Positions 2,255 through 34,170 of a DNA stretch of 39,862 nucleotides are shown in pieces. The notes beneath the pieces are model-generated. The model was given only the letters and a program-made list of their open reading frames with translations, was not told the DNA's origin and searched no databases. The position numbers and the translations under genes were made by a program. Positions within the stretch are counted from its first letter, which is position 1. Every line of letters begins with the position of its first letter. Source of the stretch: a virus; IMG/VR virus record IMGVR_UViG_3300029797_000242, positions 1-39,862 of that record; one strand, given 5' to 3'.

Positions 2255-2309
2255 AAAAAAACACCTCCTACCTGGTAGCCACGGCAAGAGGTGAAATCTG
2301 ATGTTTTAA
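2255..2309 (-). promoter_or_regulatory. Structured leader, copy A
   Basis: Read on the minus strand, a weak hairpin (around AACATCAGATT) is followed by CACCTC (2293-2288), a 9-base bulge and CTAC (2278-2275). A 3-base loop follows, then GTAG (2271-2268) and GAGGTG (2267-2262). The last segment is the Shine-Dalgarno of the next gene, so the stem would hide the ribosome site. Related copies at 7049-7095 and 34122-34170 share the core CCNNGGCTACCANNTAG. Confidence 0.6.
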
Positions 2310-4259
2310 CTAATCTTTCTTATAAAATTCGCATTCATAACCATCAGCATCAAGGATGAGTCCCTTTGCCCAGGGAGGGACTCTACTCATCTGCTGGCAC
2401 ACCCTATCAAGTGACATGCTAGAATCCGCTTCAATAATAACTTCATCATGCACATGAGCCACAATGCGGTAAGAGCTTAGAGTCTTTATGGCATGCATCA
2501 AAATATCACGAGAGATTGCTTGGACAATGTTTTCTACAAACTTAGGCCCATAGCTTTCAAGTTGATCCCATTTTTTAGTAGCACCGACACCTTCGTAAGT
2601 GACCGATTCACCACCGAAGATATTCTCACCAATCTTTGGTTTAACATAGGCAAGCTGCCTACCAGAAGGAAGAACGATAAAGAGCATTCCACTCCTGTAA
2701 TGAAACTTAATATTTTGTATTTCTTGAGACTGCTTTTCCTTAATACACTTCTTAGCTGCTCTATCCACATCCCACCAGAATTTTACGATGTACGGATTGG
2801 CCTGCCTCCAGGCATTAACCAGGGGTTTTAATTCTTCCTCTTCAAGGCCCATATCCAGTGCGCCCATAGCCTTTAAAGCTCCCACTGATCCACCATAACC
2901 TAGGGCCAGTTCTGCGATCTTGCCTTTCTGCCTTAAATGACCGTTCACACCATGCTTTTCTACCGGTACATTAAACATCTGTGATGCGGATGCACAATAA
3001 ATGTCACCGCCGCTTGCAAACACTTCACTTCTCCACTTTTCGCCTGCAAGCCATGACAGCACACGAGCCTCAATGGCAGAGAAATCGGCAACAATAAACT
3101 TACATCCTTTCTTTGGCACAAAAGCTGTCCGAATAAGCTGTGAAAGAGTATCAGGTATATCTTCATAAAGCATTTCGAGAACTTCAGAATCACCACTTTT
3201 TACGATACCTCGTGCCTCTTTTAAATCCAGGATATGGTTTTGTGGTAGATTCTGCAGCTGCACTATTTTTGAGCTGAAGCGTCCTGTCCGATTGGCGCCC
3301 AGAAAAGTAAACATGCCACGAATCCTGCCATCACTGCAGACTGCGTTTTCCATTGCAGAATATTTCTTAACAGATGACTTTGCCAGTTGCTGACGGAGTT
3401 TAAGCACCTCAGCTAGATGCTCTGGTGCGTCCTTCAATAGTTCTGCCACAGCCTTTTTACCAAGGGTATCTGTTTCCACTCCATTTTCAGAGAGCCACCC
3501 TTTCATCTGTTGCAGTGAGTTTGGGTTATCAAGTTCTGTTACTTTCTGCATCTGATCGATCAGCTTGGTGCGTGACACCTCATCCATAGTAATGGCCTGT
3601 TTTACAAAGTCCATATCTACCTTTATGCCTCGATCATTGATTCTCTCACTCAAATGGTATTCATCCCAGATGAAATCTGGCACAGGAAATTTAATCAATT
3701 TCTGCTCAATCTCCATCTCTGCCTCGACATCACGTATGTTATAGGATTTGAATCTCTCCCATTTGACTGGATCGTCAGATGGTAAATTTCTTGTGCGGTT
3801 TCTATTAGTCTTAGTCGGGCTACAAGGACCACAAAAGAATCGAATCAGATCTTTACCTTCCGTCATTTTTTGCTTCCCAAGGCCAAGAACTGCGCCTACA
3901 CCTACTAATGATAACGGCAGCCCCATATATGCTGCCCATGTCATTGTGCACCTCCATGATTCAGGAGAAATATACTTGCCCACTGGGTATCCTAGAAAGC
4001 GCGAGAAGCATATCCGCTCAAAGGAAGCATTATGAGCATATTTTATAATTTTATCATCTTCTATTGCAGAAAGTATCAATGGTGGTATCTTTTCACCGCG
4101 GGCTAAATCGATTATTTTAACCTCACTTCCGTCTGTGGAATAGGCAAAGAGCAGTATTTCAAAATCATCTGCTTGAACATAACGATACACACCACACTTT
4201 GCTAAATTGACGCTACTATAAGTTTCAATATCACAATGTAATGTTTTTATTTCAGCCAT
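2310..4259 (-). CDS. Phage DNA polymerase, family A
   Basis: This is a 649-residue family A DNA polymerase with proofreading. The 3'-5' exonuclease motifs are CDIET (D10, E12), YAHNASFE (residues 74-81) and YNIRDVEAE (about 173-181). Polymerase motif A is ADFSAIEAR around D392. Motif B is RQKGKIAELALGYGG at about 443-457. Motif C is HVHDE at about 602-606. It should replicate phage DNA. The start ATG overlaps the end of the upstream HNH gene by 13 bases. The length fits clostridial prophage polymerases with no 5' nuclease domain. It sits downstream of the lysis genes, away from the other replication genes at 27.8-32.4 kb, which is unusual. Confidence 0.95.
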   Translation of the reverse strand: MAEIKTLHCDIETYSSVNLAKCGVYRYVQADDFEILLFAYSTDGSEVKIIDLARGEKIPPLILSAIEDDKIIKYAHNASFERICFSRFLGYPVGKYISPESWRCTMTWAAYMGLPLSLVGVGAVLGLGKQKMTEGKDLIRFFCGPCSPTKTNRNRTRNLPSDDPVKWERFKSYNIRDVEAEMEIEQKLIKFPVPDFIWDEYHLSERINDRGIKVDMDFVKQAITMDEVSRTKLIDQMQKVTELDNPNSLQQMKGWLSENGVETDTLGKKAVAELLKDAPEHLAEVLKLRQQLAKSSVKKYSAMENAVCSDGRIRGMFTFLGANRTGRFSSKIVQLQNLPQNHILDLKEARGIVKSGDSEVLEMLYEDIPDTLSQLIRTAFVPKKGCKFIVADFSAIEARVLSWLAGEKWRSEVFASGGDIYCASASQMFNVPVEKHGVNGHLRQKGKIAELALGYGGSVGALKAMGALDMGLEEEELKPLVNAWRQANPYIVKFWWDVDRAAKKCIKEKQSQEIQNIKFHYRSGMLFIVLPSGRQLAYVKPKIGENIFGGESVTYEGVGATKKWDQLESYGPKFVENIVQAISRDILMHAIKTLSSYRIVAHVHDEVIIEADSSMSLDRVCQQMSRVPPWAKGLILDADGYECEFYKKD

Positions 4260-4756
4260 GCATATCTATCTCCATTCTTTATTTTGCTTATAGCCTGATG
4301 ACCCACACCATACAACTCTCCAAGCCGAGTGCAGGTAAACCCGCAGAATAATCCGAATCGTATTCCTTCAACATCATCCATGGTAAGTTTCTTCCATGCC
4401 TTGCCTTGGCGATAAACATCATAAACATTTTCAGTCTGCGTATCATATCGAAGGTTCACTAGACGGTTATCTCTGGGATCCCCATTTGCATGAAGCACAT
4501 ACATACCATCTCTTTCACCTACAAAAGCAGCCATCACCAAATGATGAACTGCAAAGCTTTTTCTTGGGTCATTTAGGACAACCATTAGGTAATTACCTCG
4601 CTTTCCGGGTCGAAGTATTCTTTCCTTTAATAAATAATCAAACTCGCCATTTTGATTGCTACTATGAATTACACGTTCAAGACTCTTAATTCTGCCCTCA
4701 CTGCTTGCCTGGTACTTCCCCTCATATCCGGGTATGTCTTTCCATATCTCATCCAT
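4247..4756 (-). CDS. NUMOD4-HNH endonuclease, probably homing
   Basis: This 169-residue protein begins with a NUMOD4 motif (WKDIPGYEGKYQASSEGRIKS, residues 5-25). It continues with an HNH region, AVHHLV near residues 74-79 and HANGDPRDNRLVNL at about 93-106. It ends in a helix-turn-helix-like specificity segment (about 130-165). Such free-standing HNH enzymes usually cut a specific phage site and spread by homing. It separates the SSB (DUF2815) and polymerase genes, which normally adjoin, consistent with intrusion. AGGAGG precedes the ATG, and a terminator-like hairpin lies just upstream of that. Confidence 0.88.
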   Translation of the reverse strand: MDEIWKDIPGYEGKYQASSEGRIKSLERVIHSSNQNGEFDYLLKERILRPGKRGNYLMVVLNDPRKSFAVHHLVMAAFVGERDGMYVLHANGDPRDNRLVNLRYDTQTENVYDVYRQGKAWKKLTMDDVEGIRFGLFCGFTCTRLGELYGVGHQAISKIKNGDRYAWLK

Positions 4757-4770
4757 TTAATATACCTCCT

Positions 4771-4806
4771 AAAAAAGCAGGTGGCAGAGGAAATACCCCC
4801 ACCACC
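4771..4806 (-). terminator. Terminator-like hairpin before the HNH gene
   Basis: On the minus strand GGTGGTGGGGG (4806-4796) can pair, with some G-U pairs, with CCTCTGCCACC (4790-4780) across a 5-base loop. TGC and six T follow. The T-run runs directly into the AGGAGG of the next gene. It could end DUF2815 transcripts or be read through. Confidence 0.5.
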
Positions 4807-4824
4807 ATCAATTGCCCTTCTCTA

Positions 4825-5379
4825 TTAAGCAAGGAAGTCATCGTCTGCAAGTGTTGTAAAATCATCTGCTGCAGAAGTCTTACCACCAAGAGGCTCGCCA
4901 TCTTTAATTTTTTGAATGTTGCCAAGTCCGCAAGCAACACCCTTATTTCCATTTGAGTTGAAGGCAAAGAAATTGAGAGAAACCCTTGCAAAGCAGCCGC
5001 TGTACACCTCACCTCGATCCATGATTGGCTTTACACTCTTGTCCACAATCTGTGGAGGCGTTTTGCTGTTGGCATTGATGAAGTAATGTCCTTTATAAGC
5101 CTCATCGTCACGCTCTACATCTCCATCGCGCAAAGGAATCTTAATTGCGGCCTTATTAGGCTTCTTGCCACCAAACTTTGCGATACCTTCCTCGATAGCG
5201 GCATCAATTGCAGCATTTACTGCGTTAATGGTTTCTGTATCGTCTTTTGGGATGAGTACAGATACACTATACTTTTCAGCACCACCATTCACGGAAACAG
5301 GCTCCCACCCGTGGAAGTAAGAGAGTCTTGTATTTACACCTGTAATAACCTTTGTAATATTGTTCTTCATATTGATCAA
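4825..5379 (-). CDS. DUF2815 phage single-strand DNA-binding protein
   Basis: This 184-residue protein has the layout of the DUF2815 family: an N-terminal VNTRLSYFHGWEP segment, a central VSVLIPKDD, a GHYFINANSKTPPQIVDK stretch and an acidic C-terminal tail (DDFTTLADDDFLA). An acidic tip is typical of single-strand DNA-binding proteins that recruit partners. The family is a known companion of DUF2800 and PolA in clostridial prophages and is thought to protect ssDNA during replication. The start overlaps the end of the DUF2800 gene by a few bases, so the two are coupled. Confidence 0.85.
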   Translation of the reverse strand: MINMKNNITKVITGVNTRLSYFHGWEPVSVNGGAEKYSVSVLIPKDDTETINAVNAAIDAAIEEGIAKFGGKKPNKAAIKIPLRDGDVERDDEAYKGHYFINANSKTPPQIVDKSVKPIMDRGEVYSGCFARVSLNFFAFNSNGNKGVACGLGNIQKIKDGEPLGGKTSAADDFTTLADDDFLA

Positions 5380-6512
5380 TCCTCCATAATTTCATTAAAT
5401 TCGTTTTTTGCGTTCGTTACGTTCATAGCCACTCTTTTATCTGTTTTAGGAACAATCGTTGGCCTTCCCGGTGGTTTTACTATGAGGCTTCCTAAGATTT
5501 CCTCAAATTTGGTTTTGCCCATCAGTTTCTGCATCTCTGTCAAAGGAATAAGGCTCTTACGGTAAATATCTTTATATCCACTCTCTACAGCTTTTTGTGC
5601 TACAGCATCTTCATCTTTGTACTTACGAACTGAGCGACCTTCCACAACTTTAAAACCACTCCACTCTTTCCCGTGGTTAACTGCTGCATCTGTGGCATAA
5701 GCAGTTATTTCACTCGCCCACTTCGTGAGATCAGGAATAATGTTTAGAATTTCTTCAATCTCACTATCTGTAAGCAGTGGTGGCATCTTAAACTCCTTCT
5801 GGGCCAGTTTGAGCTTTTCATCAGCTCTTGCACGGCATCTTATGGATGCTCTGCAGAAAGTACACCACGGGCCAGGGATATATTCACCTTCTCCTTGATA
5901 GGCTTTTGCTGCCTTAGGTTTTAGTTCTTCTTCTGCCCAGGCTTTAAGTTCTTCTACCGGAACAGTCCAGGTGCTGACGTTTTCTCTTCGCGGCTGAAAT
6001 ATTGTCATTGATACTTCTTTGATGTCGTAGAGACTGTCATAGATTTCAAGAGCCCCTAACGCATAGAGTTTCATCTGCGGATTATTTTCTGCGTCCACAA
6101 GGACTCCAATTCCGTATTTGAAATCCACTATGTGAAGCTTGTCATCTGAAATGATTACACAATCTCCCGTACCAAATCCATCTGGCACATAGCAAGAGAA
6201 GTCAAGACGTTGTTCAATAAGAACGATAGGGTCAGTACAAGACTTTCTTGCAAGTTCTACCTGCTCCATGATGAAGGCAACATAGTCATCTGTGCATTCT
6301 TCCATTTCATCTGAATCATACTCTGACACGGGCCTCTTACTTCTAATGTGGAGCGCTTTTTTCAGTTTGTGTTCTGATAGTTCATGTGCTGCAGTACCTG
6401 CTTTTGCCGCCTCTCCACTTGTGTTTTCAAACTCAAGTTCAAGCCTTGCAGATGGCAAGCAGTGAAGCCATCTGTGTGAAGAAGATGCAGATAGTATTGC
6501 GTGATTACCCAT
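5376..6512 (-). CDS. DUF2800 RecB-like nuclease
   Basis: This 378-residue DUF2800 protein belongs to the PD-(D/E)XK/RecB-like class. Visible marks are an N-terminal SASSSHRWLHC helix, a central HIVDFKYGIGV (the D and K of the nuclease core) and a cysteine cluster CTFCRASIRC that may hold an iron-sulfur cluster as in Cas4/AddB-type nucleases. By family analogy it processes DNA ends during phage replication or recombination with its DUF2815 partner. The start was placed at MGNHAILS, 9 bases after GGAGG. It overlaps the end of the preceding small gene. Confidence 0.88.
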   Translation of the reverse strand: MGNHAILSASSSHRWLHCLPSARLELEFENTSGEAAKAGTAAHELSEHKLKKALHIRSKRPVSEYDSDEMEECTDDYVAFIMEQVELARKSCTDPIVLIEQRLDFSCYVPDGFGTGDCVIISDDKLHIVDFKYGIGVLVDAENNPQMKLYALGALEIYDSLYDIKEVSMTIFQPRRENVSTWTVPVEELKAWAEEELKPKAAKAYQGEGEYIPGPWCTFCRASIRCRARADEKLKLAQKEFKMPPLLTDSEIEEILNIIPDLTKWASEITAYATDAAVNHGKEWSGFKVVEGRSVRKYKDEDAVAQKAVESGYKDIYRKSLIPLTEMQKLMGKTKFEEILGSLIVKPPGRPTIVPKTDKRVAMNVTNAKNEFNEIMED

Positions 6513-6828
6513 TGCCAAGAACCTCCGCATCTTTCAAGATGTCAGCATAGTAGGCCTTGTCAACTGCACTGAGCTTATCCGCACCATACTTCCCGATAAT
6601 AGCTCTGACTTCCGCAGTAAAACCAAGCTGACTTTTTTCAGCAAGGACCATACGCACTTTTTCAAGTGGGATATCCGGCTCTTTTGCTGTTTCCGACTTT
6701 GTGGTAGGGACTTCTTCAGGTGTTGCATCACTTTCTGTCATTGCCTTACAAACCACTTCTATGCTGTCTGCAAGGCTTCGCATATCGCTTACCACATCAA
6801 GCAGTAACTTTACTTTGCTCAAGTTCAT
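6505..6828 (-). CDS. Small conserved phage protein (rrp5-like annotation)
   Basis: This protein of about 107 residues starts MNLSKVKLLLDVVSDMRSLA. Relatives in clostridial prophages are often labelled 'rRNA biogenesis protein rrp5', which I regard as a misnomer. It has an amphipathic N-terminal helix, a low-complexity linker rich in Thr, Glu and Pro, and a C-terminal helical part (EVRAIIGKYGADKLSAVD) that resembles DNA-binding helices of phage SSB-like accessory proteins. It always travels with DUF2800. The ATG lies only 2 bases after AGGAGG, so the TTG at residue 3 may be the true start. Confidence 0.7.
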   Translation of the reverse strand: MNLSKVKLLLDVVSDMRSLADSIEVVCKAMTESDATPEEVPTTKSETAKEPDIPLEKVRMVLAEKSQLGFTAEVRAIIGKYGADKLSAVDKAYYADILKDAEVLGNG

Positions 6829-7015
6829 TTCCTCCTTTCGTAGTCTCACAGATAGCAAGTTCCTCGACACTGTCCCCTGGAATCAGAATTGTTACACGCT
6901 GTTTATCTCCAAGGAGGAAACGTAGAATGCGCTCCCTTACGGTGACATTACGGCAAGTAACGATTCCGCCTGTCTGTGGCATTTTTGAAACACTGATCTT
7001 CAGGTTGTGTTTCAT
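6797..7015 (-). CDS. Small conserved prophage protein, unknown function
   Basis: This 72-residue protein reads MKHNLKISVSKMPQTGG onward, with a VRERILRFLLGDKQRVTIL core. The family recurs as the first gene of DUF2800 operons in clostridial mobile elements. I chose the ATG with GAGGTGAAGGAT upstream. An in-frame ATG 9 codons earlier also has a GAGGGG site, which lies inside the structured leader. It may be a small regulator or replication accessory; nothing in the sequence decides this. Confidence 0.65.
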   Translation of the reverse strand: MKHNLKISVSKMPQTGGIVTCRNVTVRERILRFLLGDKQRVTILIPGDSVEELAICETTKGGNELEQSKVTA

Positions 7016-7048
7016 ATCCTTCACCTCTTTCTGAAGGGTCATTATTTG

Positions 7049-7095
7049 TTCCCCTCTATCTGGTAGCCTTGGGAAGGATGGAAATCTGACGATTT
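7049..7095 (-). promoter_or_regulatory. Structured leader, copy B (DUF2800 operon)
   Basis: On the minus strand there is a hairpin AAATC-GTCA-GATTT (7095-7082), then TTCCC (7075-7071), AAGG and CTA. A 5-base loop follows, then TAG and GGGAA (7053-7049). TTCCC/GGGAA and CTA/TAG form nested stems that cover a GAGGGG ribosome site. It starts about a dozen bases after a terminator-like T-run, leaving no room for a normal promoter between them. A 'DUF2800 RNA motif' is known among Firmicute RNA families; I cannot test whether this is the same. Confidence 0.6.
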
Positions 7096-7106
7096 TATGA
7101 AATAAC

Positions 7107-7149
7107 AAAAAAATAATGCCCTCAGAAGTTTTAAACCTCCAAGGGCATA
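7107..7149 (-). terminator. Terminator after the amidase gene
   Basis: On the minus strand ATGCCCT pairs with AGGGCAT around a partly paired inner region, and the stem is followed by TTATTTTTTT. It lies just after the amidase stop codon and marks the end of the late structural-lysis transcript. The DUF2800 leader follows almost immediately. Confidence 0.75.
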
Positions 7150-7157
7150 ATGCTTAA

Positions 7158-7847
7158 CTAATCAGTTTTGATAAAGGCATCAGTAAAGCCTGCAGCTTTT
7201 GCTCTGGCTAACATAGCATCTGCATTTGACTTAACGCTAAAAGCACCGACCTGTACCCGGTAAAGTTTTTTAGTCGGTGGAGCAGAGGGTGTTAGTAGCT
7301 TTTTCACATCAGACCTAAAGGTATCCATACTCTTACCATGCCTGGAAAACCAGTGACGAGGGTCTCCATGATTACTGGCGATTTTCTTCTGATAGCCTTC
7401 ATAGTGGCCGATGATGTCTTTCTCAGTCAGGTTATAGAGTTTGCAGAGGTGCGCACAAAGCTCTGTGGCTTCTCTATACACTGCATTAAAATACGAGGCA
7501 TCGGTCAAACCGTCCTCGCAGATTTCAAAACTGATATGCGTATTATTAGCAGCGCCTCCTGCATGCCAGCCTCTATGATCCCATGGCAGGGTCTGATAGG
7601 AAGCGATGGTGCCATTTTTTAGCTTTCCAACAAAGGCATGGACACAGACTTGTCTGCCACTGGGTCTATGCTGGTTCCAATGATTGTTGTACTGGTTTTG
7701 TCCAAGAAGGCCATCATCCGGACCAACATATCTACGAAGATAAGGGTTATTGGCCCCAGTGCTGTGGACCATAATGCCCTTGGGCTTGATTTTTCTACCT
7801 GCTTTATAGCATTCATTTTCTGTAAAGATAAGTTTTTTTAGGTTCAT
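7158..7847 (-). CDS. Endolysin: N-acetylmuramoyl-L-alanine amidase with SPOR-like tail
   Basis: This is a 229-residue phage lysin. Residues about 20-165 form an Amidase_2 domain, with the zinc motif MVHST (H28), GWHAGG (H95), IGHYEG (H148) and HGDPRHWF near residue 160. Residues about 192-229 (LYRVQVGAFSVKSNADAMLARAKAAGF) match a SPOR-like peptidoglycan-binding repeat. It cleaves the amide bond between muramic acid and the stem peptide to release phage. It has no signal peptide, so it depends on the holin encoded two genes upstream. It is the last gene of the late operon. Confidence 0.93.
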   Translation of the reverse strand: MNLKKLIFTENECYKAGRKIKPKGIMVHSTGANNPYLRRYVGPDDGLLGQNQYNNHWNQHRPSGRQVCVHAFVGKLKNGTIASYQTLPWDHRGWHAGGAANNTHISFEICEDGLTDASYFNAVYREATELCAHLCKLYNLTEKDIIGHYEGYQKKIASNHGDPRHWFSRHGKSMDTFRSDVKKLLTPSAPPTKKLYRVQVGAFSVKSNADAMLARAKAAGFTDAFIKTD

Positions 7848-7891
7848 AGATTTTCCCTCCTACGATTTGTTGCAATCTATAGAAAAATATA

Positions 7892-7918
7892 AACGCCACA
7901 GGCTTGGCCTATGACGCT
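7892..7918 (-). terminator. Terminator-like hairpin before the amidase gene
   Basis: A stem of about 12 pairs (three G-U) forms on the minus strand: GCGTCATAGGC, loop CAA, GCCTGTGGCGT, followed by TATATTTTT. It lies between the small zinc-ribbon gene and the amidase. It may lower or condition lysin expression. Confidence 0.65.
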
Positions 7919-19936: not shown

Positions 19937-20431
19937 TTACTTGTACTCTCTCGGAATAGGAATACCAAATCTTTCACATAAAAGTTTTACATCATGTACA
20001 TCATTTTCATTATGTTCATAGCCCAAGTGAAATAGCACTTGATTTTCAGCGTCAATGCACTTTACCTCTTTATTACCTATTTCCCCAATACCACTAAACA
20101 CATTTGGTGGATATTCTTCTCCTTCAAAAACAATGTATCCCTGTTCATTAAATTTGAATATATGAAGATCAATTATCCTACCTTTAGTATCCTTCCAAAC
20201 CGTGTGAGATTCTGTTGTATATGATTCAACAATTTCAATAAAGCCTTTTTTCTTTAATATACTAATAAATTTTTTGCCGTTGCTTTCCTCCACAAATAAA
20301 TCAATATCATTGTGTGCTCTAGTTTCTTCTTTCAACAGGGCATCTACACCCCAACCACCATCTATCCAAATACTAATTTCATTTTCTTCGGCCCATGTTA
20401 TTATTTCAATAGCGTCAGTTTTATTCACCAT
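19937..20431 (-). CDS. Lincosamide nucleotidyltransferase-like protein (Lnu(C)/(P) type)
   Basis: This 164-residue minimal nucleotidyltransferase shows WIDGGWGVDALL (22-33) and RAHNDIDLF (38-46), which supply GG and two Asp (D42, D44). A third acidic residue lies in RIIDLHIF (D88). The ending HLGYEHNENDVHDVKLLCE is very like Lnu-type enzymes as I remember them, and the length matches. Such enzymes adenylylate lincomycin and clindamycin. The gene has its own promoter and good RBS (GGGGTGATTGT ATG), and is visibly more AT-rich than the flanking terminase and portal genes. It looks like a moron acquired by the phage. Other small-substrate adenylyltransferases of the PF10706 group remain possible. 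Confidence 0.8.
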   Translation of the reverse strand: MVNKTDAIEIITWAEENEISIWIDGGWGVDALLKEETRAHNDIDLFVEESNGKKFISILKKKGFIEIVESYTTESHTVWKDTKGRIIDLHIFKFNEQGYIVFEGEEYPPNVFSGIGEIGNKEVKCIDAENQVLFHLGYEHNENDVHDVKLLCERFGIPIPREYK

Positions 20432-23563: not shown

Positions 23564-24796
23564 TTATTTATTTTCTAGGAGGTCACTATAGCGGTATTCT
23601 TTTCCATCACGAATAAGGTAAACTTCATCTGCTGATTCAACACTAGAAATAAACCTTTCCACTATAACATCACAAAACTTCTCATCAAGCTCAATGGTGT
23701 GACAAATTCTCTGGGTTTGTTCACAGGCAATAAGCGTACTACCTGAACCGCCAAAGGGATCCAGGACGATGCAGTTACTAAGACTTGAATTAAGAATTGG
23801 ATGAGCCACAAGCGCCACAGGCTTCATTGTTGGATGAGATCCATTCTTCTTAGGTTTTTCAAATTCCCATATAGTCGTTTGCTTTCTATCAGCATACCAC
23901 TTGTGCTTGCCCTTATTCTTCCACCCAAAGAGCACAGGCTCATGCTGCCACTGGTAAGGGGACCTACCAAGAACTAGAGATTGCTTTTTCCAGATGCAGG
24001 TACCTGATAGATAAAAACCAGCATCCGAGAAGGCTTTTCTAAAGTTCAGCCCTTCCGTATCCGCGTGAAAAACATAGATAGAAGAGTCCTCTGTCATCAC
24101 TGCTTCCGCATTGGTGAAAGCCGCTAGCAGGAATTCATAAAAAGCAGAATCGCCCATGTTATCATTTTTAATTTTTCCAGCAGACCCTTCGTAGTTCACA
24201 TTGTAAGGCGGGTCTGTCACCACCAAATTTGCTTGCTTTCCATCCATAAGGATCATGAAGGTTTCAGCCTTGGTAGAGTCACCGCAAATAAGTCTATGGG
24301 GTCCAAGCTTCCAAACGTCACCAAGTTTTGTCATAGCTGGTTTTTCAAGCTCCCCGTCCACATCAAATTCATCATCATGAATGCCATCCTTCAAGGAATC
24401 TTTAAATAGATCGTCCAGTTCAGCAGGATCAAATCCTGTAAGGGAAACATCAAAGTCAGCACCTTGGAGGTCAGCGATAAGTAGAGCCAATTTATCCTTG
24501 TCCCAGTCACCACTGATTTTATTAAGAGCAATGTTGAGAGCCTTTTCTTTTTCTTCATCCATTTCAATAACTACGCACTCAACTTCATCCATTCTTAAAT
24601 CAAGGAGCACTTTTAATCTCTGGTGGCCACCTACAACTCTTCCAGTAGTCTTATTCCAGATAACAGGTTCGACATAGCCAAACTCTTCAATGGATCGCTT
24701 TAGCTTTTCGTATTCAGCATCCCCAGGCTTTAAGTCCTTTCGTGGATTATAGTCAGCGGGGATGAGGTTTTTAGTCTTCAATTTTTCGATCTTCAT
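23564..24796 (-). CDS. ParB-domain DNA methyltransferase
   Basis: This 410-residue fusion has a ParB/Srx-like N-terminal domain (about 1-95, with GGHQRLKVLLDL at 56-67) and a C-terminal beta-class DNA methyltransferase. Catalytic motif IV DPPY is at 195-198 and SAM-binding motif I DPFGGSG at 346-352, in the order IV then I expected for N6-adenine or N4-cytosine enzymes. It is probably an orphan modification enzyme that protects phage DNA from host restriction; no cognate restriction gene is seen. The start overlaps the end of metK by 26 bases. Confidence 0.92.
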   Translation of the reverse strand: MKIEKLKTKNLIPADYNPRKDLKPGDAEYEKLKRSIEEFGYVEPVIWNKTTGRVVGGHQRLKVLLDLRMDEVECVVIEMDEEKEKALNIALNKISGDWDKDKLALLIADLQGADFDVSLTGFDPAELDDLFKDSLKDGIHDDEFDVDGELEKPAMTKLGDVWKLGPHRLICGDSTKAETFMILMDGKQANLVVTDPPYNVNYEGSAGKIKNDNMGDSAFYEFLLAAFTNAEAVMTEDSSIYVFHADTEGLNFRKAFSDAGFYLSGTCIWKKQSLVLGRSPYQWQHEPVLFGWKNKGKHKWYADRKQTTIWEFEKPKKNGSHPTMKPVALVAHPILNSSLSNCIVLDPFGGSGSTLIACEQTQRICHTIELDEKFCDVIVERFISSVESADEVYLIRDGKEYRYSDLLENK

Positions 24797-25952
24797 ATCT
24801 TTCCGCCGCCTTTCTTAAATTCAAGTTAAAGTCTACATTCTCCCAGGGGAATAGACAGGAATTAAAATGACCGTAGGTTGCTGTATCGGAGTAAATTGCA
24901 TTTCTAAGTCGCAGCTTTTCGATAATGGCCGCTGGACGTAGATTAAAGGTTTCTAGAACAACTCCACATAAATGCTCGTCACTGATTATTCCAGTTCCAA
25001 AAGAGTTAACACTAACTGCTACGGGATTTGCTTTTCCGATGGCATAAGAAAGAGCGACCTCACATTTTTCAGCAAGCCCGCTCCAAACAATATTCTTAGC
25101 AATGTATCTGGCCATATAGGCGCCGCTCCTATCTACCTTGGTTGGATCCTTTCCGCAAAGTGCACCTCCACCGTGAGAAGCCAGTCCACCATAGGTATCA
25201 ACCATAATCTTTCTTCCTGTAAGGCCTGTATCAGCAGCAGGGCCACCTTCGACAAATCGTCCTGACGGATTGATGAGGATTTCAGTGTCATCATCAACCG
25301 GTAAATCCTCAAAACACTGCCAGAGCACGTTATTTAAGATATCTGATTCTAGTTGCTCCATTGTTTTATCCTTGTGATGCTGAACAGATACCACAACTGT
25401 TTTAACGCGAATAGGTTTATCGCCATAGTACTCAATAGTGACTTGAGCCTTTCCATCGGGTAAGATGCCCTTGATGATTTTACCTTCGCGACATTCATCA
25501 ATGCGCTTAACAATTCTATGAGAAAGAAGTAGTGGCAAAGGCAGCTTTTCTCTTGTTTCATTTGTTGCATAACCATAAACAGTGCCTTGGTCACCAGCAC
25601 CGATGGAACCGTATGGGTCTATAATTCCATTTCTTACTTCAAGAGCTGTATCTACACCAGAAGCAATATCTACACTTTGATGATGTACAAACACGGATAC
25701 TCTAAATTTCCTTGGGTTATATCCAACTTCACGAAGTACATTTCTTACAATGAGACGAATATCTATTTTTTCGCTGCAGGTGATCTCGCCCGCCACGATA
25801 ATTTTTCCCTTAGTAGCCATAACCTCACAGGCAACTCTTGAAGCCTTATCTTTTCGAAGGCACGCATCTAAAATACTGTCTGCAACTAAATCACAAAGCT
25901 TATCAGGATGTCCCTTACATACACTTTCTGCGGTTCTGTAGTTTTTACTCAT
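24771..25952 (-). CDS. metK: S-adenosylmethionine synthetase (phage-borne)
   Basis: This 393-residue MetK joins methionine and ATP to make SAM. The motifs are ESVCKGHPDK (9-18, the first His-Pro-Asp-Lys), GAGDQG (118-123) and GGGALCGKDPTKVDRS near 265-280. Compared with housekeeping MetK the P-loop-like motif carries LC in place of the usual FS, and the N-terminal segment is diverged, so this is a phage lineage rather than a recent host copy. Its overlap with the methyltransferase gene suggests it supplies SAM for that enzyme. Confidence 0.93.
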   Translation of the reverse strand: MSKNYRTAESVCKGHPDKLCDLVADSILDACLRKDKASRVACEVMATKGKIIVAGEITCSEKIDIRLIVRNVLREVGYNPRKFRVSVFVHHQSVDIASGVDTALEVRNGIIDPYGSIGAGDQGTVYGYATNETREKLPLPLLLSHRIVKRIDECREGKIIKGILPDGKAQVTIEYYGDKPIRVKTVVVSVQHHKDKTMEQLESDILNNVLWQCFEDLPVDDDTEILINPSGRFVEGGPAADTGLTGRKIMVDTYGGLASHGGGALCGKDPTKVDRSGAYMARYIAKNIVWSGLAEKCEVALSYAIGKANPVAVSVNSFGTGIISDEHLCGVVLETFNLRPAAIIEKLRLRNAIYSDTATYGHFNSCLFPWENVDFNLNLRKAAERYEDRKIED

Positions 25953-27063: not shown

Positions 27064-27127
27064 ATTATACTATAACACAAAGGTGACTGTGGTATCTTGT
27101 TGCAAAGTGTTGCAAAGTGTGCAAATT
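27064..27127 (-). promoter_or_regulatory. Candidate late promoter with direct repeats
   Basis: On the minus strand a perfect TATAAT (27069-27064) has no recognisable -35. About 30 bases upstream lie two exact 10-bp direct repeats ACTTTGCAAC (27118-27109 and 27108-27099) and a partial third ending at 27127. The 10-bp period puts them on one DNA face. An activator, possibly the DUF1492 protein encoded just upstream, may bind there. Confidence 0.55.
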
Positions 27128-27551
27128 ATATTTTAATAGGAACATCTGGAAGCACTGCATGTTTAAGGGCTGCATTGTGCCACCTATAAACCGTTGTCCT
27201 GTCAGCGTCAAGTGCATCGCCTATTTGCTCCCATGTAAAGTTATGAACGTAGCGGTAGCGTAGAACCATGCGTTCATCAGTATTAGACACTTCATTGATG
27301 ACAAATCTAATCTGTTCTTTTAGGGCTATAAGATTATCTACTTCCGCATTGATCCTTCTTTCCAAATCCATGATTCTTTCCACGCACCTTACAAATTTTG
27401 CTTCTTCGCATCTTGAAGTTTGAACTCTTTCATCCCAACTAGGTGAGGATACACTTGTTGCCATTTCTCTTAAACTTTCCATTTCCTCAATGTTTGATTG
27501 GATTCTTTTATCTAGCCTATAGGCCTGATGCAGGTATTCTTTTATTTTCAT
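27126..27551 (-). CDS. DUF1492/ArpU-like late transcription regulator
   Basis: This 141-residue protein has a long N-terminal coiled coil and a C-terminal helix-turn-helix resembling sigma-70 region 4 (RMVLRYRYVHNFTWEQIGDALDADRTTVYRWHNAALKH, about 95-130). The family (DUF1492/ArpU/RinA-like) regulates late genes in Gram-positive phages. Its position, last before the terminase block and next to a promoter with direct repeats, fits a late activator. Its start overlaps the previous stop (ATGA), so it is coupled to the early operon. Confidence 0.82.
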   Translation of the reverse strand: MKIKEYLHQAYRLDKRIQSNIEEMESLREMATSVSSPSWDERVQTSRCEEAKFVRCVERIMDLERRINAEVDNLIALKEQIRFVINEVSNTDERMVLRYRYVHNFTWEQIGDALDADRTTVYRWHNAALKHAVLPDVPIKI

Positions 27552-29123: not shown

Positions 29124-29629
29124 AAGGGCATCACCTCCTCTATCACTTTCAAAGGTATTTCTCCCTTATCAAAGAACTTTCTAATCTGAGCGTGATATCT
29201 CATATGATCTGAACTTGAAGAGAAAACCATCAAGTTATCAGGATCATTATTTCTTCGATTGCCGTCAATGTGATGTACAACCTCATTCTTTTTTAATTTT
29301 CTACCAAGTTTTTGTTCTGCCACCACCCTATGAGCATGTCTCCCATAATATTTTGTATATGTTTTTCCTTCACCTGTACCTAGCCTAGCTTTTCTCATTT
29401 TTGTTCTCATCTCTTTTGTCATCTTTGTTGGGTTCAACTTGCGATTTAACTCTGAGAGATGCTCTGACATATTTGTATAGTCTTTGAGTTCATGATATCC
29501 AGTAGGGTTTATACTTTTATTGCTAAAATCGGATAAACACTTGCGAGAACAAAAATTATGCTTTTTTATTTGTGATGGGTATTTATAAATTTCTTTACCA
29601 CACCAATTACATTCCATTTTTAATTTCAT
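29120..29629 (-). CDS. HNH endonuclease, probably homing
   Basis: This 169-residue protein has an N-terminal zinc site (CNWC at 7-10 and CSRKC near 26-30), a basic middle (TKMTKEMRTKMRKARLG) and a C-terminal HNH (VVHHIDGNRRNNDPDNLMVF, about 125-145). I chose the ATG at MKLKMEC with GGAGGGG 8 bases upstream. It lies between VRR-NUC and SNF2, genes that are usually adjacent, and overlaps both. It is probably a homing enzyme that entered the replication operon. The indel in the helicase lies less than 100 bases downstream. Confidence 0.88.
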   Translation of the reverse strand: MKLKMECNWCGKEIYKYPSQIKKHNFCSRKCLSDFSNKSINPTGYHELKDYTNMSEHLSELNRKLNPTKMTKEMRTKMRKARLGTGEGKTYTKYYGRHAHRVVAEQKLGRKLKKNEVVHHIDGNRRNNDPDNLMVFSSSSDHMRYHAQIRKFFDKGEIPLKVIEEVMPL

Positions 29630-29891
29630 CCAGCACCCCTCCAATCTGATCCACACCATCAATGCAGTAGACCAAAAAACCTAACGCTTCCAGTTGCCTT
29701 TTTCGCCTTACCTGAAGAGGCCGCATCTTTTTACCTGGTGCTTTTAATTCAACAAAGGCCATTCTTGCCATGGGAAGAAGTACAATCCTATCTGGCACAC
29801 CATCAAACCCTGGACTAGTGAATTTAAGGGCCCTACCTCCCATGGCTTTTACTGCTTTTACTAATTTTTGCTCTATATATTTTTCAGTCAT
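29607..29891 (-). CDS. VRR-NUC nuclease
   Basis: This 94-residue single-domain VRR-NUC (PD-(D/E)XK) protein has MTEKYIEQKLVKAVKAMGG, PGFDGVPDRIVLLP (catalytic D), MAFVELKAPGKK (E-x-K) and a LGFLVYCIDGVDQI end. Single-domain VRR-NUC proteins act as Holliday-junction-type resolvases in phages and usually pair with the SNF2 helicase. The start follows GGGAGGAAAAAA. Confidence 0.93.
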   Translation of the reverse strand: MTEKYIEQKLVKAVKAMGGRALKFTSPGFDGVPDRIVLLPMARMAFVELKAPGKKMRPLQVRRKRQLEALGFLVYCIDGVDQIGGVLDEIKNGM

Positions 29892-30039
29892 TTTTTTCCT
29901 CCCATCTGACACAAGAATCACAAGTTCACAACTATTCCCCTATATTTACTTACGCGCGTGCGCTCACAGGTATTTACTATGTGCTTTTAAGAAAAAGCAT
30001 TTTGAATATAAGGGAAAATCTTGTGTTGTGTTGTGTTCA
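29892..30039 (-). other. Noncoding gap with facing CACAA/TTGTG arrays
   Basis: Between VirE and VRR-NUC there are three TTGTG units in tandem on the plus strand at 30021-30035 and three CACAA units, 8-9 bp apart, at 29910, 29919 and 29927. They face each other across about 90 bases. The middle contains a 7-bp perfect hairpin (TGCTTTT/AAAAGCA) and a GCGCACGCGCG tract. It could be a protein-binding or origin-like site; the call is weak. Confidence 0.4.
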
Positions 30040-32388
30040 TCATTTTCCGTATTGGTAGAGTCGCTGCCTGCCATAAATCGGCAAACGCTTAATACTACTG
30101 GTACGTTCCCAACCAGGAATCTGGGCCATAAGGGCAGCAATCTGGTAACTATCCGTAGCCTTAAGCTCCGATAGGTTCCTATTAAGACATTCGCACCATA
30201 TCTCAGCATTGCTTACCTCGGTTCTAGTAATCGTTCCATTGCGTTCTAAGCTTCCAAACTCACTTCCATTTAGGTAGTTGCGGCGGGAGAACAGATCCAT
30301 GCTATCCCAGTCATCTGGTAATTTTGTATTCAGGTACTCTTCCACCATACCAACACGCTCATCAGCTTCCATAGCACCTTTTTGCGCTTTTTCAGCCTCC
30401 TCTAGAACATCACCTTCTAGATACAGTTTTTCACCAGACTTCCATATTTCTTTTGCTTCCGCCCAGAACTGGCGCCTATATTCTTCAGTGAAGTTCCAAG
30501 ACTTTTTCTGTTTTTTCTGGTGGACCTTTATAATCCAGAAGCGTCGGTTACCTGTAATATCTCGAAGGTATCCACGCTCACCATTGACCGTTGCAATGAT
30601 GATACACTGCCTTGGATGGCTTTCAACAACTCTGCCATAAGATGGCCTGTACTTATCATCTGATGTCGAGAGGAAGGCCTTCACTTTTTCAATGTCAGCT
30701 TTTTTCATACCGGCAAGCTCACCAATCTCTACCACCCAGAAGCCTTGGAGTTTCTCAGCACCTGACTTATCGTCCATATCAGTAAGAGATAAGGTTTCTG
30801 AATAATAATCTGATGAGACTAGGTCCTTTACAATAGTACTTTTACCGATGCCTTGGTCTCCATCAAGCACAGGTACGCAGTCAAATTTTATCCCTGGAAC
30901 ATAAATCCGAGCTACTGCAGCTGCAAATGTCTTGCGAGTCACTGTACGGATATACTCTGTATCATCTGCTTTTAGATATTTGATAAAGAGATCTTCCACA
31001 CGTTTCACACCATCCCAAGCTGGCAGCGCATTTAGATAATCCCTAACTGGGTGGAACCGCCTATCATCAGCTACTTTGGTAAAAGCCACATCATGATTTC
31101 TACTTGAAAACGGAAGATAACGTATATCTATAATTGATTTAAGCTGGGCTGTATCGGCATCCCTCCAGAAAGCATTGCCTTCTGGTCTTCCCCAAGGAAG
31201 TGGACCCTTCACCTGGATTCGATTGGCCATCTCGTTAAAGGCAAAGTCCCTAAAATCAGGATCGTTATTGAGAATAAGATTTAAGTTGTAGACACTGTTT
31301 TCCAGTACTTGGCTTCGGGGCTGGTATCTAAGCTTCTTTGTCCAGTCTCCATCAATATTTTCAAAGTCCACTTCAGCTTCAGTTAATCGTTCAGCGGTAG
31401 CAAGTTGTTTTACATCCTCATCCTTCATGGCAAATTCGCACATATTTTTGAAGGATTTTTTATCATCACCATCGCCAAACTTATGGATGCGAACGATATC
31501 AAAGGCATTACAAAGACTTAAATATGCAGGGTCCTTGGCATGGTGGCTATAAACGAATTTACCACCTTCAATAATTTCAACACCAGCCATGCTGCTTGAC
31601 TCAGTAAGGTGATACCTATTTTCATTTTCTGTAGACTGATATATGTCATTAAGAAATTTATCTAGTGCTTTTGTTATAGGGAAATAGACCCTGTTAAAAA
31701 GTCCTACAATACCGTCCTTTTCGAGAGGATCTTCCACCTTCTTATAACTTGCTGTGTTGGCCTTACTCTCTCTAGACGATGTGGGCAGTCTTGTAGGGTC
31801 TGTCCACTGGGGATGAGCTGATAATATTTCATCTGGATCAAGCCATGCCTTATCCACTTCTTTATAAACAAAGTGTCCGTTGGCTGATGTGCTGGGCCAA
31901 TACATCAGCTGATTAGGTTGATAGGAGCATTCATCAAAGTTGTCCATGCCAAGCATCTCTGCCAGATATCTTGAAACTGCAACAAATTCTTCAGGCGTCA
32001 CATCTCTTGTTAGTGGGAAAACGAGCCTAACTCTTGGATTATCTTCTGTACTGCTGTGTGTGGTATAAAGAGCTGATGTATAAGGCGCTCTGGATTCATA
32101 ATTATCTAGGAAATCTTTATCAATCTTGTCCCCATCTAGGGCAATCATGGAACGCAGGTCTACCGCGTCAATTTTTCTTCGTCCGTCCTTTAATGCACCG
32201 GCAACAAAACCTCCATGATCCTTGGCATTGTCCTTTTGTGATTTACTGAACTTGGCATATTCTTCAGCCGACTCCGTTGTTCTAATAGGAACCTTTAATC
32301 TTTCCTTTAAATCTTCAAAGGTAATTGTCTTATTTATCCACTTCTTTGCTTGCCGGCTATTTCCGTAGGCAATGGCTAAATTACGCAC
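30040..32388 (-). CDS. VirE-family primase-helicase
   Basis: This 782-residue prophage replication protein starts at GTG after GGAGGTGGATGCTGA. The N-terminal 200 residues resemble a primase-like domain (MIALDGDKID, NPRVRLVFPLTRDV, YQPNQLMYWPS). The C-terminal VirE domain is a D5-like superfamily 3 ATPase with Walker A DGDQGIGKST near 509-518 and the WVVEIGELAGMKKADIEKVKAFLS block near 570. It should unwind and prime DNA at the phage origin. It heads the VRR-NUC/SNF2 set. Confidence 0.93.
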   Translation of the reverse strand: MRNLAIAYGNSRQAKKWINKTITFEDLKERLKVPIRTTESAEEYAKFSKSQKDNAKDHGGFVAGALKDGRRKIDAVDLRSMIALDGDKIDKDFLDNYESRAPYTSALYTTHSSTEDNPRVRLVFPLTRDVTPEEFVAVSRYLAEMLGMDNFDECSYQPNQLMYWPSTSANGHFVYKEVDKAWLDPDEILSAHPQWTDPTRLPTSSRESKANTASYKKVEDPLEKDGIVGLFNRVYFPITKALDKFLNDIYQSTENENRYHLTESSSMAGVEIIEGGKFVYSHHAKDPAYLSLCNAFDIVRIHKFGDGDDKKSFKNMCEFAMKDEDVKQLATAERLTEAEVDFENIDGDWTKKLRYQPRSQVLENSVYNLNLILNNDPDFRDFAFNEMANRIQVKGPLPWGRPEGNAFWRDADTAQLKSIIDIRYLPFSSRNHDVAFTKVADDRRFHPVRDYLNALPAWDGVKRVEDLFIKYLKADDTEYIRTVTRKTFAAAVARIYVPGIKFDCVPVLDGDQGIGKSTIVKDLVSSDYYSETLSLTDMDDKSGAEKLQGFWVVEIGELAGMKKADIEKVKAFLSTSDDKYRPSYGRVVESHPRQCIIIATVNGERGYLRDITGNRRFWIIKVHQKKQKKSWNFTEEYRRQFWAEAKEIWKSGEKLYLEGDVLEEAEKAQKGAMEADERVGMVEEYLNTKLPDDWDSMDLFSRRNYLNGSEFGSLERNGTITRTEVSNAEIWCECLNRNLSELKATDSYQIAALMAQIPGWERTSSIKRLPIYGRQRLYQYGK

Positions 32389-32819
32389 TCAGCATCCACC
32401 TCCTCAAAGTTTTTATTGAAATATCTGACCCGCTGCTTACGTTTATTTGCCTTTTCTATTTCAATACGCATACCTCTTGAAATGGTGTCACCAAGGACCC
32501 ATACTTCCTGGCATTTACCCATAAGGATGATGTCCATGAAAATGGCGAGTTCTCTTTCTTCTTCATTTGTATCATCCATAAACTGCGGAAACATAAGATG
32601 CGGAGCCAGAGGAATGTTCCCCTTTTCTAAGGCAAAACGACAAAATTTCTGTGCACGTTTAACATTTTCTTCGATATCTCCACTAAAAGGTGAGCATATA
32701 TATACAAGAGGTCTAAAGGCGGGCTTTGATGCCGCCTTCTCCTCTTTAGTAATATTGGTGAGTGCTTCAAAAGGAGTCGGGTCATGGTAGCCTTCTGAAT
32801 TATATTTATTTATGCTCAT
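32376..32819 (-). CDS. DUF4406-like nucleotide-binding protein
   Basis: This 147-residue protein has a Rossmann-like pattern: PLVYICSPFSGDIEENVKRA, GNIPLAPHLMFPQFMDD, and CQEVWVLGDTISRGMRIEIEKA. It resembles DUF4406/nucleoside 2-deoxyribosyltransferase-like proteins, which recur in phages and may handle nucleotides or nucleotide signals. No catalytic assignment is safe. It overlaps VirE at its end and follows a GAGGAGG site. Confidence 0.8.
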   Translation of the reverse strand: MSINKYNSEGYHDPTPFEALTNITKEEKAASKPAFRPLVYICSPFSGDIEENVKRAQKFCRFALEKGNIPLAPHLMFPQFMDDTNEEERELAIFMDIILMGKCQEVWVLGDTISRGMRIEIEKANKRKQRVRYFNKNFEEVDAECVI

Positions 32820-33339
32820 AAGACTTGCCTCCTCTAGATAGCGCTCTAAGAAAACCTATTAAAAATTCTGGTAAAAATATCCCACATTCTTCTGTTTCAA
32901 GCCATAAAGCATTTTTTTCACCAACAAACCCGGTGATAACTGTATCTTGTAAATGTTCATTGATATTAATAGTTGCTCTAAGTGGGAATAATTCATCTAC
33001 TGTTTCAACTAAATCTATTGAATCTAAAACTTCGACCACACTAGAGTTTCCTACTTTTTTCGCCACTTCTTTGGCTGTAGCTACCGCGTCTTCGTATGAT
33101 ACACAATGCCACTCTCCCATAGTTCTATATTTCTTTAACCGTGCTAGAATTTTACTTTCTACTTCATATCCATTCTGATAAGGCCCTAAGGCTATACATC
33201 TTAAAGAGAAAAACCCACCAGTTCTTTCTAAATACTTAATTCTTTCTATATAATTTTTCGAAACCCCAACTTTGACTTGGTTTTTAGGTTTTTCAATTAC
33301 ATAAACCCACTGTTCTGGCTCCTTAAATTTCTTACACAT
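32806..33339 (-). CDS. GIY-YIG/T5orf172-like protein
   Basis: This 177-residue protein has a core near residues 10-85 that fits the T5orf172/MUG113 branch of the GIY-YIG superfamily: WVYVIEKPKNQVKVGVSKNY, ERIKYLERTGG, EVESKILARLKKYR, GEWHCVSYEDAVATAKEV. The C-terminal 80 residues are unassigned. Such proteins often sit beside phage antirepressors, as here. It may be a nuclease or a DNA-binding helper. ATG follows GGAGG at 6 bases. Confidence 0.8.
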   Translation of the reverse strand: MCKKFKEPEQWVYVIEKPKNQVKVGVSKNYIERIKYLERTGGFFSLRCIALGPYQNGYEVESKILARLKKYRTMGEWHCVSYEDAVATAKEVAKKVGNSSVVEVLDSIDLVETVDELFPLRATININEHLQDTVITGFVGEKNALWLETEECGIFLPEFLIGFLRALSRGGKSYEHK

Positions 33340-33340
33340 A

Positions 33341-34090
33341 TTAATCCTCCATTTCTATCTGAGGCGAAATACCATCTGCCTTCATCAGTTCATAAATAAA
33401 AAGTCTTCCTTTTTGAGTCCAATAGGTATGAACTTTTGTATGTTGCTGACCATTTCTACCAAGATAATTATGTGTTTTAGTGCTTGTATAGCCTCTTTCT
33501 GCATACTTCTGATATAAAAGCCAGATGTTACCTTGCTTAAACTGTATTCCTTTCTTCTTCAGATAGCGGTTCATCCATATAGCTGATTTACCATAGTCCT
33601 TAGCAATAGCTGACGTTGAAATAAGATCCTTACAATTTAGAACAACATCATAATACGAGACCTTTGGTTTCATTTCTGTAATTTGCTGACTTTGAACAGC
33701 TATAGTATTTTCAAGCAGTTCATTTTGATGTTTTACTATGGCAAGTTGCTTGCTAGCATATTGCAGACCCCGCGCCATAATTGCCTCTGGAGAATTCCAT
33801 TTTTCCTCGATTGCAAGAAAGTACTTTCGGCACTCTTTTCCCTTTGGAGTGCGTTGAATCATGCATATTTCTTTTGCCATATTAATAGTTAGCTGATGAT
33901 TAGTACTTGGCCTACCTCCATTACTTTCGCTCAAAAATGAGCTAAAGTCTGTTCCCTCTACAAATCCATATTCACACATTCTTGGAAACCAATCTTTGTA
34001 AGCTGTTTTCACCTCTAAGGCTTGATGTAAATCGCGCCCAAGCACAGTAGGTTGTTCATTTTCATATTCAATTCTCACTAATTCTCTCAT
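33341..34090 (-). CDS. Phage antirepressor (AntA/AntB + KilAC)
   Basis: This 249-residue antirepressor has an N-terminal AntA/AntB-like domain (about 1-95: LVRIEYENEQPTVLGRDLHQAL, YKDWFPRMCEYGFVEGTDF, QRTPKGKECRKYF). A coiled linker (about 105-135) follows, then a C-terminal KilAC DNA-binding domain (SYYDVVLNCKDLISTSAIAKDYG to the end). It would counter the CI-type repressor during induction, but no repressor gene is in the window. It has AAGGAGGTAATTCTG before ATG and the third leader copy further upstream. Confidence 0.92.
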   Translation of the reverse strand: MRELVRIEYENEQPTVLGRDLHQALEVKTAYKDWFPRMCEYGFVEGTDFSSFLSESNGGRPSTNHQLTINMAKEICMIQRTPKGKECRKYFLAIEEKWNSPEAIMARGLQYASKQLAIVKHQNELLENTIAVQSQQITEMKPKVSYYDVVLNCKDLISTSAIAKDYGKSAIWMNRYLKKKGIQFKQGNIWLLYQKYAERGYTSTKTHNYLGRNGQQHTKVHTYWTQKGRLFIYELMKADGISPQIEMED

Positions 34091-34121
34091 CAGAATTACC
34101 TCCTTAATTTTTTTGAAGGTC

Positions 34122-34170
34122 TTGACCCTTCTAAGTGGTAGCCTTGGGAAGAAGTCAAATCTGACGATTT
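34122..34170 (-). promoter_or_regulatory. Structured leader, copy C (antirepressor operon)
   Basis: On the minus strand there is a hairpin AAATC-GTCA-GATTT (34170-34157) that overlaps the last codons and stop of the sigma-like gene. TTGAC (34158-34154), TTCTTCCCAAGG, CTA, a 5-base loop, TAG, AAGG and GTCAA (34126-34122) follow. TTGAC/GTCAA shares two bases with the first hairpin, so the two may exclude each other. The usual Shine-Dalgarno of the antirepressor lies about 20 bases further on, outside the stem. Confidence 0.6.

Follow-up and report, generated by a model that had tools for sequence, protein, structure and literature searches.

A threefold phage element as a probable promoter set read by a sigma-region-4 protein

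A threefold element and its phage family

The virus record IMGVR_UViG_3300029797_000242 from IMG/VR, analysed over its full 39,862 nucleotides (hereafter the window), carries three copies of a short element, A, B and C, each ahead of a different gene block, and the locus raises the question of what such a repeated element does. A sequence-only reading had taken it for a structured leader RNA, with copies at 2255-2309, 7049-7095 and 34122-34170. The three copies are indeed present, all on the minus strand, and a pattern scan places the motif TCAGATTT-N13-GGCTACCA-NN-TAG at 2268-2301, 7056-7089 and 34131-34164. In our judgement, they are probably three copies of one phage promoter, with a small sigma-region-4 protein encoded at 34155-34727 as the selector, together defining a middle regulon in which an outer stem, P1, would silence read-through RNA at A and C. 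The evidence that carries this reading was computed and comprises the family, the spacing, the terminators, the hairpin positions, the sigma homology and the matched variation of DNA block and protein helix.

The gene blocks behind the copies are the recombinase, DUF2800-PolA and antirepressor-VirE blocks that had been described before. Copy A follows the polA stop and precedes a 71-aa SHOCT-domain protein (2039-2254, minus strand; PHROG 2996) and two recombinase genes. Copy B lies behind an amidase gene and a terminator, and ahead of a block encoding a phrog_7234 protein, DUF2800, DUF2815, HNH and PolA, whose first gene (6797-7015, minus strand; PHROG 7234) begins MKHNLKISVSK. Copy C overlaps the end of gene 34155-34727 and is followed by an AntA/KilAC antirepressor gene (33341-34090, minus strand) and a VirE/VapE primase gene. 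The whole motif is matched three times in the window and never in 100 shuffles, as is TCAGATTT-N13-GGCTACCANNTAG. The core GGCTACCANNTAG has three exact matches; with up to two mismatches it has six in the window, not above chance (shuffle mean 6.87), so the significance of the motif is carried by the whole pattern and not by the core.

The exact motif recurs in at least 117 IMG/VR stretches and, in GTDB species genomes, in 39 stretches from many genera of Clostridia and also from Lacticigenium, Megasphaera and Parvimonas (pattern scans). We read 87 distinct contexts, comprising IMG/VR stretches and the window, nine of which were left out as presumed chance matches because they lack TCA before GATTT (L006, L007, L021, L027, L034, L050, L108, L111 and L117). 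The sequence model R1, at E <= 0.001, has matches in 8 of the 250 genomes scanned from one family and in 9 of the 391 from one class, counts that include the query genomes and a few doubtful weak matches; in the class of G004 it finds one of 151 genomes, namely G004 itself, and its weak matches L186 and L193 are chance-like. Three matches each are found in Streptococcus phage Javan630 and in Erysipelothrix phage phi1605, and three strong ones in Lacticigenium naphthae DSM 19658 (G004) and in Petroclostridium sp. X23 (G009). Among 24 records, 14 are virus records of at least 40 kb; three or four matches (E <= 0.01) were found in 12 of them and a single match in each of the other two, G801 and G811. 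The sequence-only reading depended on further copies upstream of phage genes, and such copies stand before the same three blocks in relatives. The three elements thus belong to a large family of such elements in Firmicutes phages, wider than that reading could know.

Contexts were sorted into classes A, B and C by rules that use the neighbours, A partly by its 3' arm and C partly by its upstream open reading frame (ORF); ten contexts without a class (X) were left out of the class tests. Several arrangements within the family deserve mention. L291 and L294 each have two B copies in tandem, spaced by about 80 nt. In L233, at about 944-1080, copies with an GGTTACCA upstream block and an GGCTAATA core stand in a row before the DUF2800 block, two of them matching the pattern and the third degenerate by eye. 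Full or near-full copies that lack both an assigned gene start and a sigma gene in the neighbourhood occur in L128/L171, L133/L167, L157/L172 and L182, and the Blautia copies and the L133 copy have a common TGATTACGTATAAGGGC stretch behind them.

Probable promoter architecture and the sigma-region-4 protein

Each copy is built as a promoter might be. A -35-like block, CGTCAGATTT at B and C and CATCAGATTT at A, is followed after 13 nt by a -10-like GGCTAccA and, 2 nt further, by TAG. On the minus strand, the -35-like block of copy A (TAAAACATCAGATTT) spans 2294-2308, as judged from the sequence and the pattern match, and its -10-like block with the start region (GGCTACCAGGTAG) spans 2268-2280, the putative start being the A or G of TAG at 2269/2268. 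The corresponding blocks are AAAATCGTCAGATTT at 7082-7096 and GGCTACCAGATAG at 7056-7068 in copy B, and AAAATCGTCAGATTT at 34157-34171, over the last codons of the sigma-like gene, and GGCTACCACTTAG at 34131-34143 in copy C. The spacing is rigid: the TCAGATTT type, found at exactly N13 in the IMG/VR stretches counted above, has no match there at N3-12, and at N14-23 it is found in a single stretch of apparently unrelated DNA.

Terminators mark out class B. By a simple rule of our own, a terminator-like hairpin lies directly upstream in 42 of 47 B contexts, 5 of 35 A contexts and none of 31 C contexts, compared with 4, 1 and 0 after letter shuffling, and in B contexts the T-run of the terminator starts 7-27 nt before the block. 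In the window, an intrinsic terminator with a 15-pair stem followed by TATTTTTTTG occupies 7106-7148 on the minus strand, directly upstream of copy B; in the standard scan it appears as a 15-pair terminator at 7148-7116. No sigma-70-like promoter was found by a standard scan of the minus strand from 6950 to 7350.

A second hairpin, P2, begins at the putative start. Folded from the G of TAG, it starts at that base in 31 of 32 B and 27 of 29 C sequences (mean z -2.9 and -2.8), and no such pattern is seen in A (27 sequences, z -0.4); with 4 upstream nt folded in, it still starts there in 26 of 34 B and 25 of 29 C. Read from the sequence of the window, P2 pairs GAGGGG with ACCCTT at copy B (7034-7056, minus strand) and takes the form GAAGG-GTCAAGA-CCTTC at copy C (34115-34131, minus strand). 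From this position we infer that transcription would start at TAG behind GGCTAccA; the position fits transcripts with a 5'-terminal hairpin but is no proof of them. A promoter fits better than a leader, because of the rigid spacing, the terminator before B, the hairpin at TAG and the change of block together with recognition helix.

The candidate selector is the 190-aa protein encoded at 34155-34727 on the minus strand. It matches Sigma70_r4_2 at E 0.0026, and among 11 family members Sigma70_r4_2 and TIGR02937 are each matched by 10 (best 1.6e-6 and 2.1e-6, respectively). Its AlphaFold2 model is confident only at residues ~121-187 (mean pLDDT for the whole protein 62.8). The best Foldseek matches of the model are mostly sigma factors, chiefly their region 4, and VIA-align superposes it on CnrH with a Z of 9.5 over 67 residues at 2.5 Å; as structure matches may reflect common helical arrangements, they were used only alongside the sequence profiles. 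A sigma-like ORF ends within -60 to +110 nt of the core in all 34 C contexts, which is partly so by construction, as the class C rule uses the upstream ORF. In phages with an CTCAACTTT or GGTTACCA block, the gene directly before the DUF2800 block encodes a sigma-region-4-like protein: P0001 matches Sigma70_r4 at E 2.8e-8, above the cut-off, and P0002 matches UPF0122 best and Sigma70_ECF next, both just above the cut-off. Pfam matches of the 11 members, P0001 and P0002 include no region-2 family. A second sigma-region-4-like protein of the window (27126-27551, minus strand; DUF1492, Sigma70_r4) is encoded near the terminase genes and is a candidate late regulator.

Block and protein vary together. 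We distinguish six types of upstream block, each with its own recognition helix. The TCAGATTT block goes with (D/E)ENNI(T/S)QKLKRA (25 distinct C-termini; so in 20 of the 20 displayed), the TCAGTTTT block with DPTTVTHWLRRA (n=2), and the GTCCTTTTA or GTCCTTTTT block with AN(N/T)VSHRYRRA (n=5) and with two looser relatives of that helix, PNTLNHRLQRA and EANKISKKYNRA. The CTCAACTTT block is accompanied by VSxSAISHRLDTA (n=3), the GGTTACCA block by a different helix (n=1) and the GTCCAAT block by LKRDTVYKRLQRA (n=1); CTCAACTTT and GGTTACCA were each seen at one place per phage. Relatives of the 34155-34727 protein include the GTCCTTTT type. The N-terminus of the protein is of two kinds, which cut across the block types: L012, L068 and L149 combine one kind with the TCAGATTT helix, and L196 combines the other kind with a new helix. 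Where a block other than TCAGATTT could be read at two or more copies, one common type was found in 6 of 7 records (18 copies); G793, G795, G797, G799, G800 and G540 have one block type at all copies read.

The suggestion that one trans factor could control all three blocks therefore probably holds for a single phage factor, with the sigma-region-4 protein as the candidate. This protein would select all three putative promoters, and the antirepressor-primase, DUF2800-PolA and SHOCT-recombinase blocks would then switch on together as a middle regulon. The same protein might instead be an activator or a Q-like antitermination factor acting at a DNA site, with a host sigma factor reading the -10. 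Only region 4 is recognisable in it, it has weak matches to both PHROG 79 ('anti-termination protein Q-like') and PHROG 1740 ('RNA polymerase sigma factor'), and terminators do stand before B. However, GGCTAccA is unlike a host -10, and B already stands past its terminator and would gain nothing from antitermination at B itself. We consider this alternative unlikely.

Shared structure, the outer stem and read-through

A leader RNA acting in cis, with a protein or ligand as its binding partner, the blocks as the RNA recognition site and P1 as a switching stem, would explain the element differently, and its predictions can be read from the relatives. As a whole, the structure first proposed is paired in 79.1% of cells across 28 distinct relatives, compared with 75.9 in shuffles (2 of 500 reach the native value), and slid versions reach at most 51.5%. 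Covariation, which the sequence-only reading had suspected, is seen in P1 of A and C. The parts fare differently. In the first hairpin, the middle pair (columns 5-12) fails in 23 of the 28 relatives, and none of the five pairs is changed on both sides. In a wider set this pair forms in 3 of 12 A copies (an undercount, as the filter demanded C or G before TC), in 6 of 48 B and in 16 of 27 C copies, with a U-A/A-U exchange between block types, so that the first hairpin is poorly kept overall and a weak one may exist at C. The proposed pairing of CTA with TAG gets no support, because these letters are invariant in the 28 relatives and hence uninformative on pairing.

The outer stem is where the structural claim survives in part. 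Over the 28 relatives, four of the six P1 pairs are changed on both sides, with only 66% of cells paired, and the classes were then taken separately (15 distinct arm pairs in A, 40 in B and 29 in C). In A (CACCTC/GAGGTG), P1 has -11.37 kcal/mol, compared with -7.62 with the 5' arm shuffled (reached by 0 of 300); swapped arms reach the native value in 152 of 1000 cases, a comparison that is uninformative since the arms scarcely vary. In C, the value is -9.87 kcal/mol vs -8.72 for swapped arms (0 of 1000). In B, P1 is not kept among relatives: -6.70 vs -6.71 kcal/mol for swapped arms, with 505 of 1000 reaching it over the 40 arm pairs, and all 300 arm shuffles pair at least equally well. In the window, where the outer stems of A and C do pair, the 5' arm of copy A (CACCTCTT, 2286-2293, minus strand) lies in the spacer between the two blocks, and its 3' arm (AGGAGGTG, 2262-2269) is also the ribosome site of the next gene, as had been claimed for A and B alike. 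For B this does not hold: its conserved gene MKHNLKISVSK starts at 7015 with a ribosome site at ~7022-7028, and the ATG beside the 3' arm of copy B is absent from many relatives. In copy C, also on the minus strand, the 5' arm is GACTTCTTC with one base bulged (34148-34156), and the 3' arm is GAAGGGTC (34124-34131), within which GAAGG is also the 5' strand of P2.

The leader alternative thus has in its favour the covariation of P1 in A and C, the excess of the whole structure over shuffled and slid versions, the C copies in which the middle pair of the first hairpin forms, the mutual exclusion of P1 and P2 in C, and the ribosome site in the 3' arm of A. Against it stand the lack of a conserved P1 in B, the failure of the middle pair in most relatives and in 42 of 48 B copies, and the shift of P1 to another register relative to the core in L185 and L211 while the blocks keep their 13 nt. 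In addition, 42 of 47 B copies lie within 27 nt of a terminator T-run, which leaves scant room for another promoter, and the block type tracks a DNA-binding helix. We regard a leader as quite improbable: the RNA reading probably fails as an account of the conserved blocks and holds for the outer stem of two copies out of three. A repeated DNA site for recombination or replication and not transcription, suggested by copies that flank replication and recombinase genes, is highly implausible, given the fixed orientation to the downstream gene and the nearly constant start distance within each of A, B and C.

Other RNA-based candidates were considered along with these. A riboswitch or ligand aptamer was set aside, as P1 changes register relative to the core and the two blocks hold a constant distance, and translational coupling as a general mechanism was dropped, as B has no close upstream gene; by eye, no conserved start of a leader peptide was seen. 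Among Rfam 15 families, where a match to the element had been thought possible, no relevant one was found: the scan of the window (E<=5) gave only three unrelated matches at chance level, that of five group-B loci (E<=2) only two, and that of 16 DUF2800 loci (E<=1), mainly a probe for known motifs near DUF2800 genes since only some of these loci carry the element, gave none.

On the promoter reading, the stem would acquire a role of its own. The two promoter blocks of A and C enclose the 5' arm of P1, which would be missing from any RNA starting at TAG, leaving P1 to form in read-through RNA only. Compared with own-start RNA, read-through RNA is predicted to have a much less open ribosome site: 0.09 instead of 0.57 in A (n=28) and 0.15 instead of 0.65 in C (n=32). 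With the 5' arm shuffled, the read-through RNA has an openness of 0.25 in A and 0.34 in B, and the native arm closes the ribosome site more than shuffles do in 27 of 28 A, 27 of 32 C and 26 of 46 B. Predicted closing therefore depends clearly on the arm in A, modestly in C and hardly at all in B, where the copy sits behind a terminator and has no conserved P1. The putative promoter thus occupies the space between the arms of a ribosome-site hairpin, or the arms themselves, directly in A and via P2 in C, but not in B. At A, P1 in a read-through RNA would cover the ribosome site directly. At C, P1 and P2 are mutually exclusive, and the ribosome site, which for the antirepressor gene is AAGGAGGT (34098-34105, minus strand), has its complement in the 3' strand of P2 (CCTTC or CCTCC); P1 would take its 3' arm from P2 and so free the other strand of P2 to cover the ribosome site. 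As a timing device, the early transcript of the sigma-like gene would run into the antirepressor gene and leave it untranslated until the protein fires the promoter.

A number of findings weigh against the promoter reading or parts of it. The pattern is present at only 5 of 24 DUF2800 loci from Clostridia genomes and is thus not general to such loci, and 9 of the 10 X contexts have no sigma gene nearby. GGCTACCA is no ordinary -10. The start of P2 at the G of TAG becomes less frequent with longer upstream sequence, because other pairings compete: with 8 nt it is kept in only 22 of 34 B and 18 of 29 C, and with 12 nt in only 16 of 34 and 5 of 29. As for the protein, the matches of the window member to Sigma70_r4_2 and TIGR02937 lie under the curated cut-offs, the Pfam one included, no Foldseek match reaches E <= 0.001, and sigma region 2 is not recognisable, the N-terminal half being modelled with low confidence. 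At C, the match of block and helix is partly trivial, since the block is itself part of the final codons of the sigma-like gene; a free test comes from the A and B copies alone. G603 (L192/L258) has tandem copies, the L192 pair 85 nt apart, with two different -35-like blocks, G803 combines the TCAGATTT block with a different recognition helix, and some B copies in TCAGATTT records are the one-base variants GTCAGATTC and GTCAGATAT. The middle pair of the first hairpin, as noted, forms in more than half of the C copies. Part of the closing effect is generic, as openness also falls in B (0.69 to 0.32, n=46), and in C shuffling the arm alters it little (0.15 to 0.21). Finally, at A, silencing of read-through from promoter B would bring little timing benefit if the same factor drives both.

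Known systems, neighbouring genes and biological meaning

Phage sigma-directed promoters and silencing of read-through RNA are of a known kind, of which the present case would be a variant. According to the part of PMC3014915 consulted, longer early transcripts of T4 gene e hide the ribosome site, lowering lysozyme ~100-fold, and late promoters within the region encoding the 5' strand of the helix give rise to transcripts without it; the same late-promoter-in-hairpin arrangement is described for I-TevI and others (soc) in the portion of PMC2988022 consulted. As far as those excerpts go, our element, at A and C, resembles T4 gene e, soc and I-TevI in having its putative promoter in the 5' strand of a ribosome-site helix that would be present only in the longer transcripts. 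Unlike at T4 gene e, one putative promoter sequence recurs here at A and C of one phage, the phages are those of Firmicutes, the proposed factor is a region-4 protein, and control at C would be indirect, via P2. Similarly, the consulted sections of PMC9429907 and PMC3014915 describe SPO1 gp28/gp34 and T4 gp55 as phage factors that send RNA polymerase to sets of phage promoters in a timed sequence, and to that extent a phage-encoded factor proposed for a promoter set has precedents. Unlike these, the protein considered here is small, has only region 4 recognisable and is paired with an odd -10-like block, and the block specificities differ between related phages.

The sequence-only reading had also pointed to a 'DUF2800 RNA motif', which probably goes back to Weinberg et al. 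2017 (cited in PMC8143477). Only the B copies have in common with it a position before DUF2800 genes; they have no conserved outer stem but do have hairpin P2. A literature search found nothing for DUF2800 RNA or for DUF2815 with an RNA motif, nor anything on phage sigma factor-like proteins in clostridia. Among the papers listed, no description of this promoter was found in titles or abstract beginnings, which does not prove that it is unpublished.

Several neighbouring genes are of interest in their own right. On the minus strand of the window, HamB (35352-37985) and HamA (37972-39507) form a complete-looking Hachiman defence system at 35352-39507, carried by the phage (PADLOC). Between the terminase and portal genes, a small protein (19937-20431, minus strand), which by eye we take to be aminoglycoside/lincosamide nucleotidyltransferase-like, had no match in PADLOC, the one resource searched. 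At 24771-25952 and 23564-24796 (minus strand), an S-adenosylmethionine synthetase-like gene, assigned by eye and without a PADLOC match, overlaps a type II DNA methyltransferase gene (PADLOC MTase_II). In Erysipelothrix phage phi1605 (L319), an annotated tetM (3183-5102) lies between the amidase gene and copy B, ~0.9 kb upstream of the latter.

More broadly, and tentatively, the family may represent a widespread promoter-specificity system of Firmicutes phages, with small sigma factors in which only region 4 is recognisable, a non-standard GGCTAnnA -10, at least six -35 specificities, promoters re-tuned in each phage and stems that mute read-through. If the promoter reading is true, the case also counsels caution: where conserved sequence and local covariation coincide ahead of genes, the cause can be a promoter that a stem spans and not a leader RNA. 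The matched pairs of block and helix would then be a natural data set for the specificity code of sigma region 4, and the phage would provide T4-style silencing of read-through with an independent example. For the phages themselves, it would identify the temporal switch of a large Firmicutes group, in which one early gene acts through three promoters on the replication blocks.

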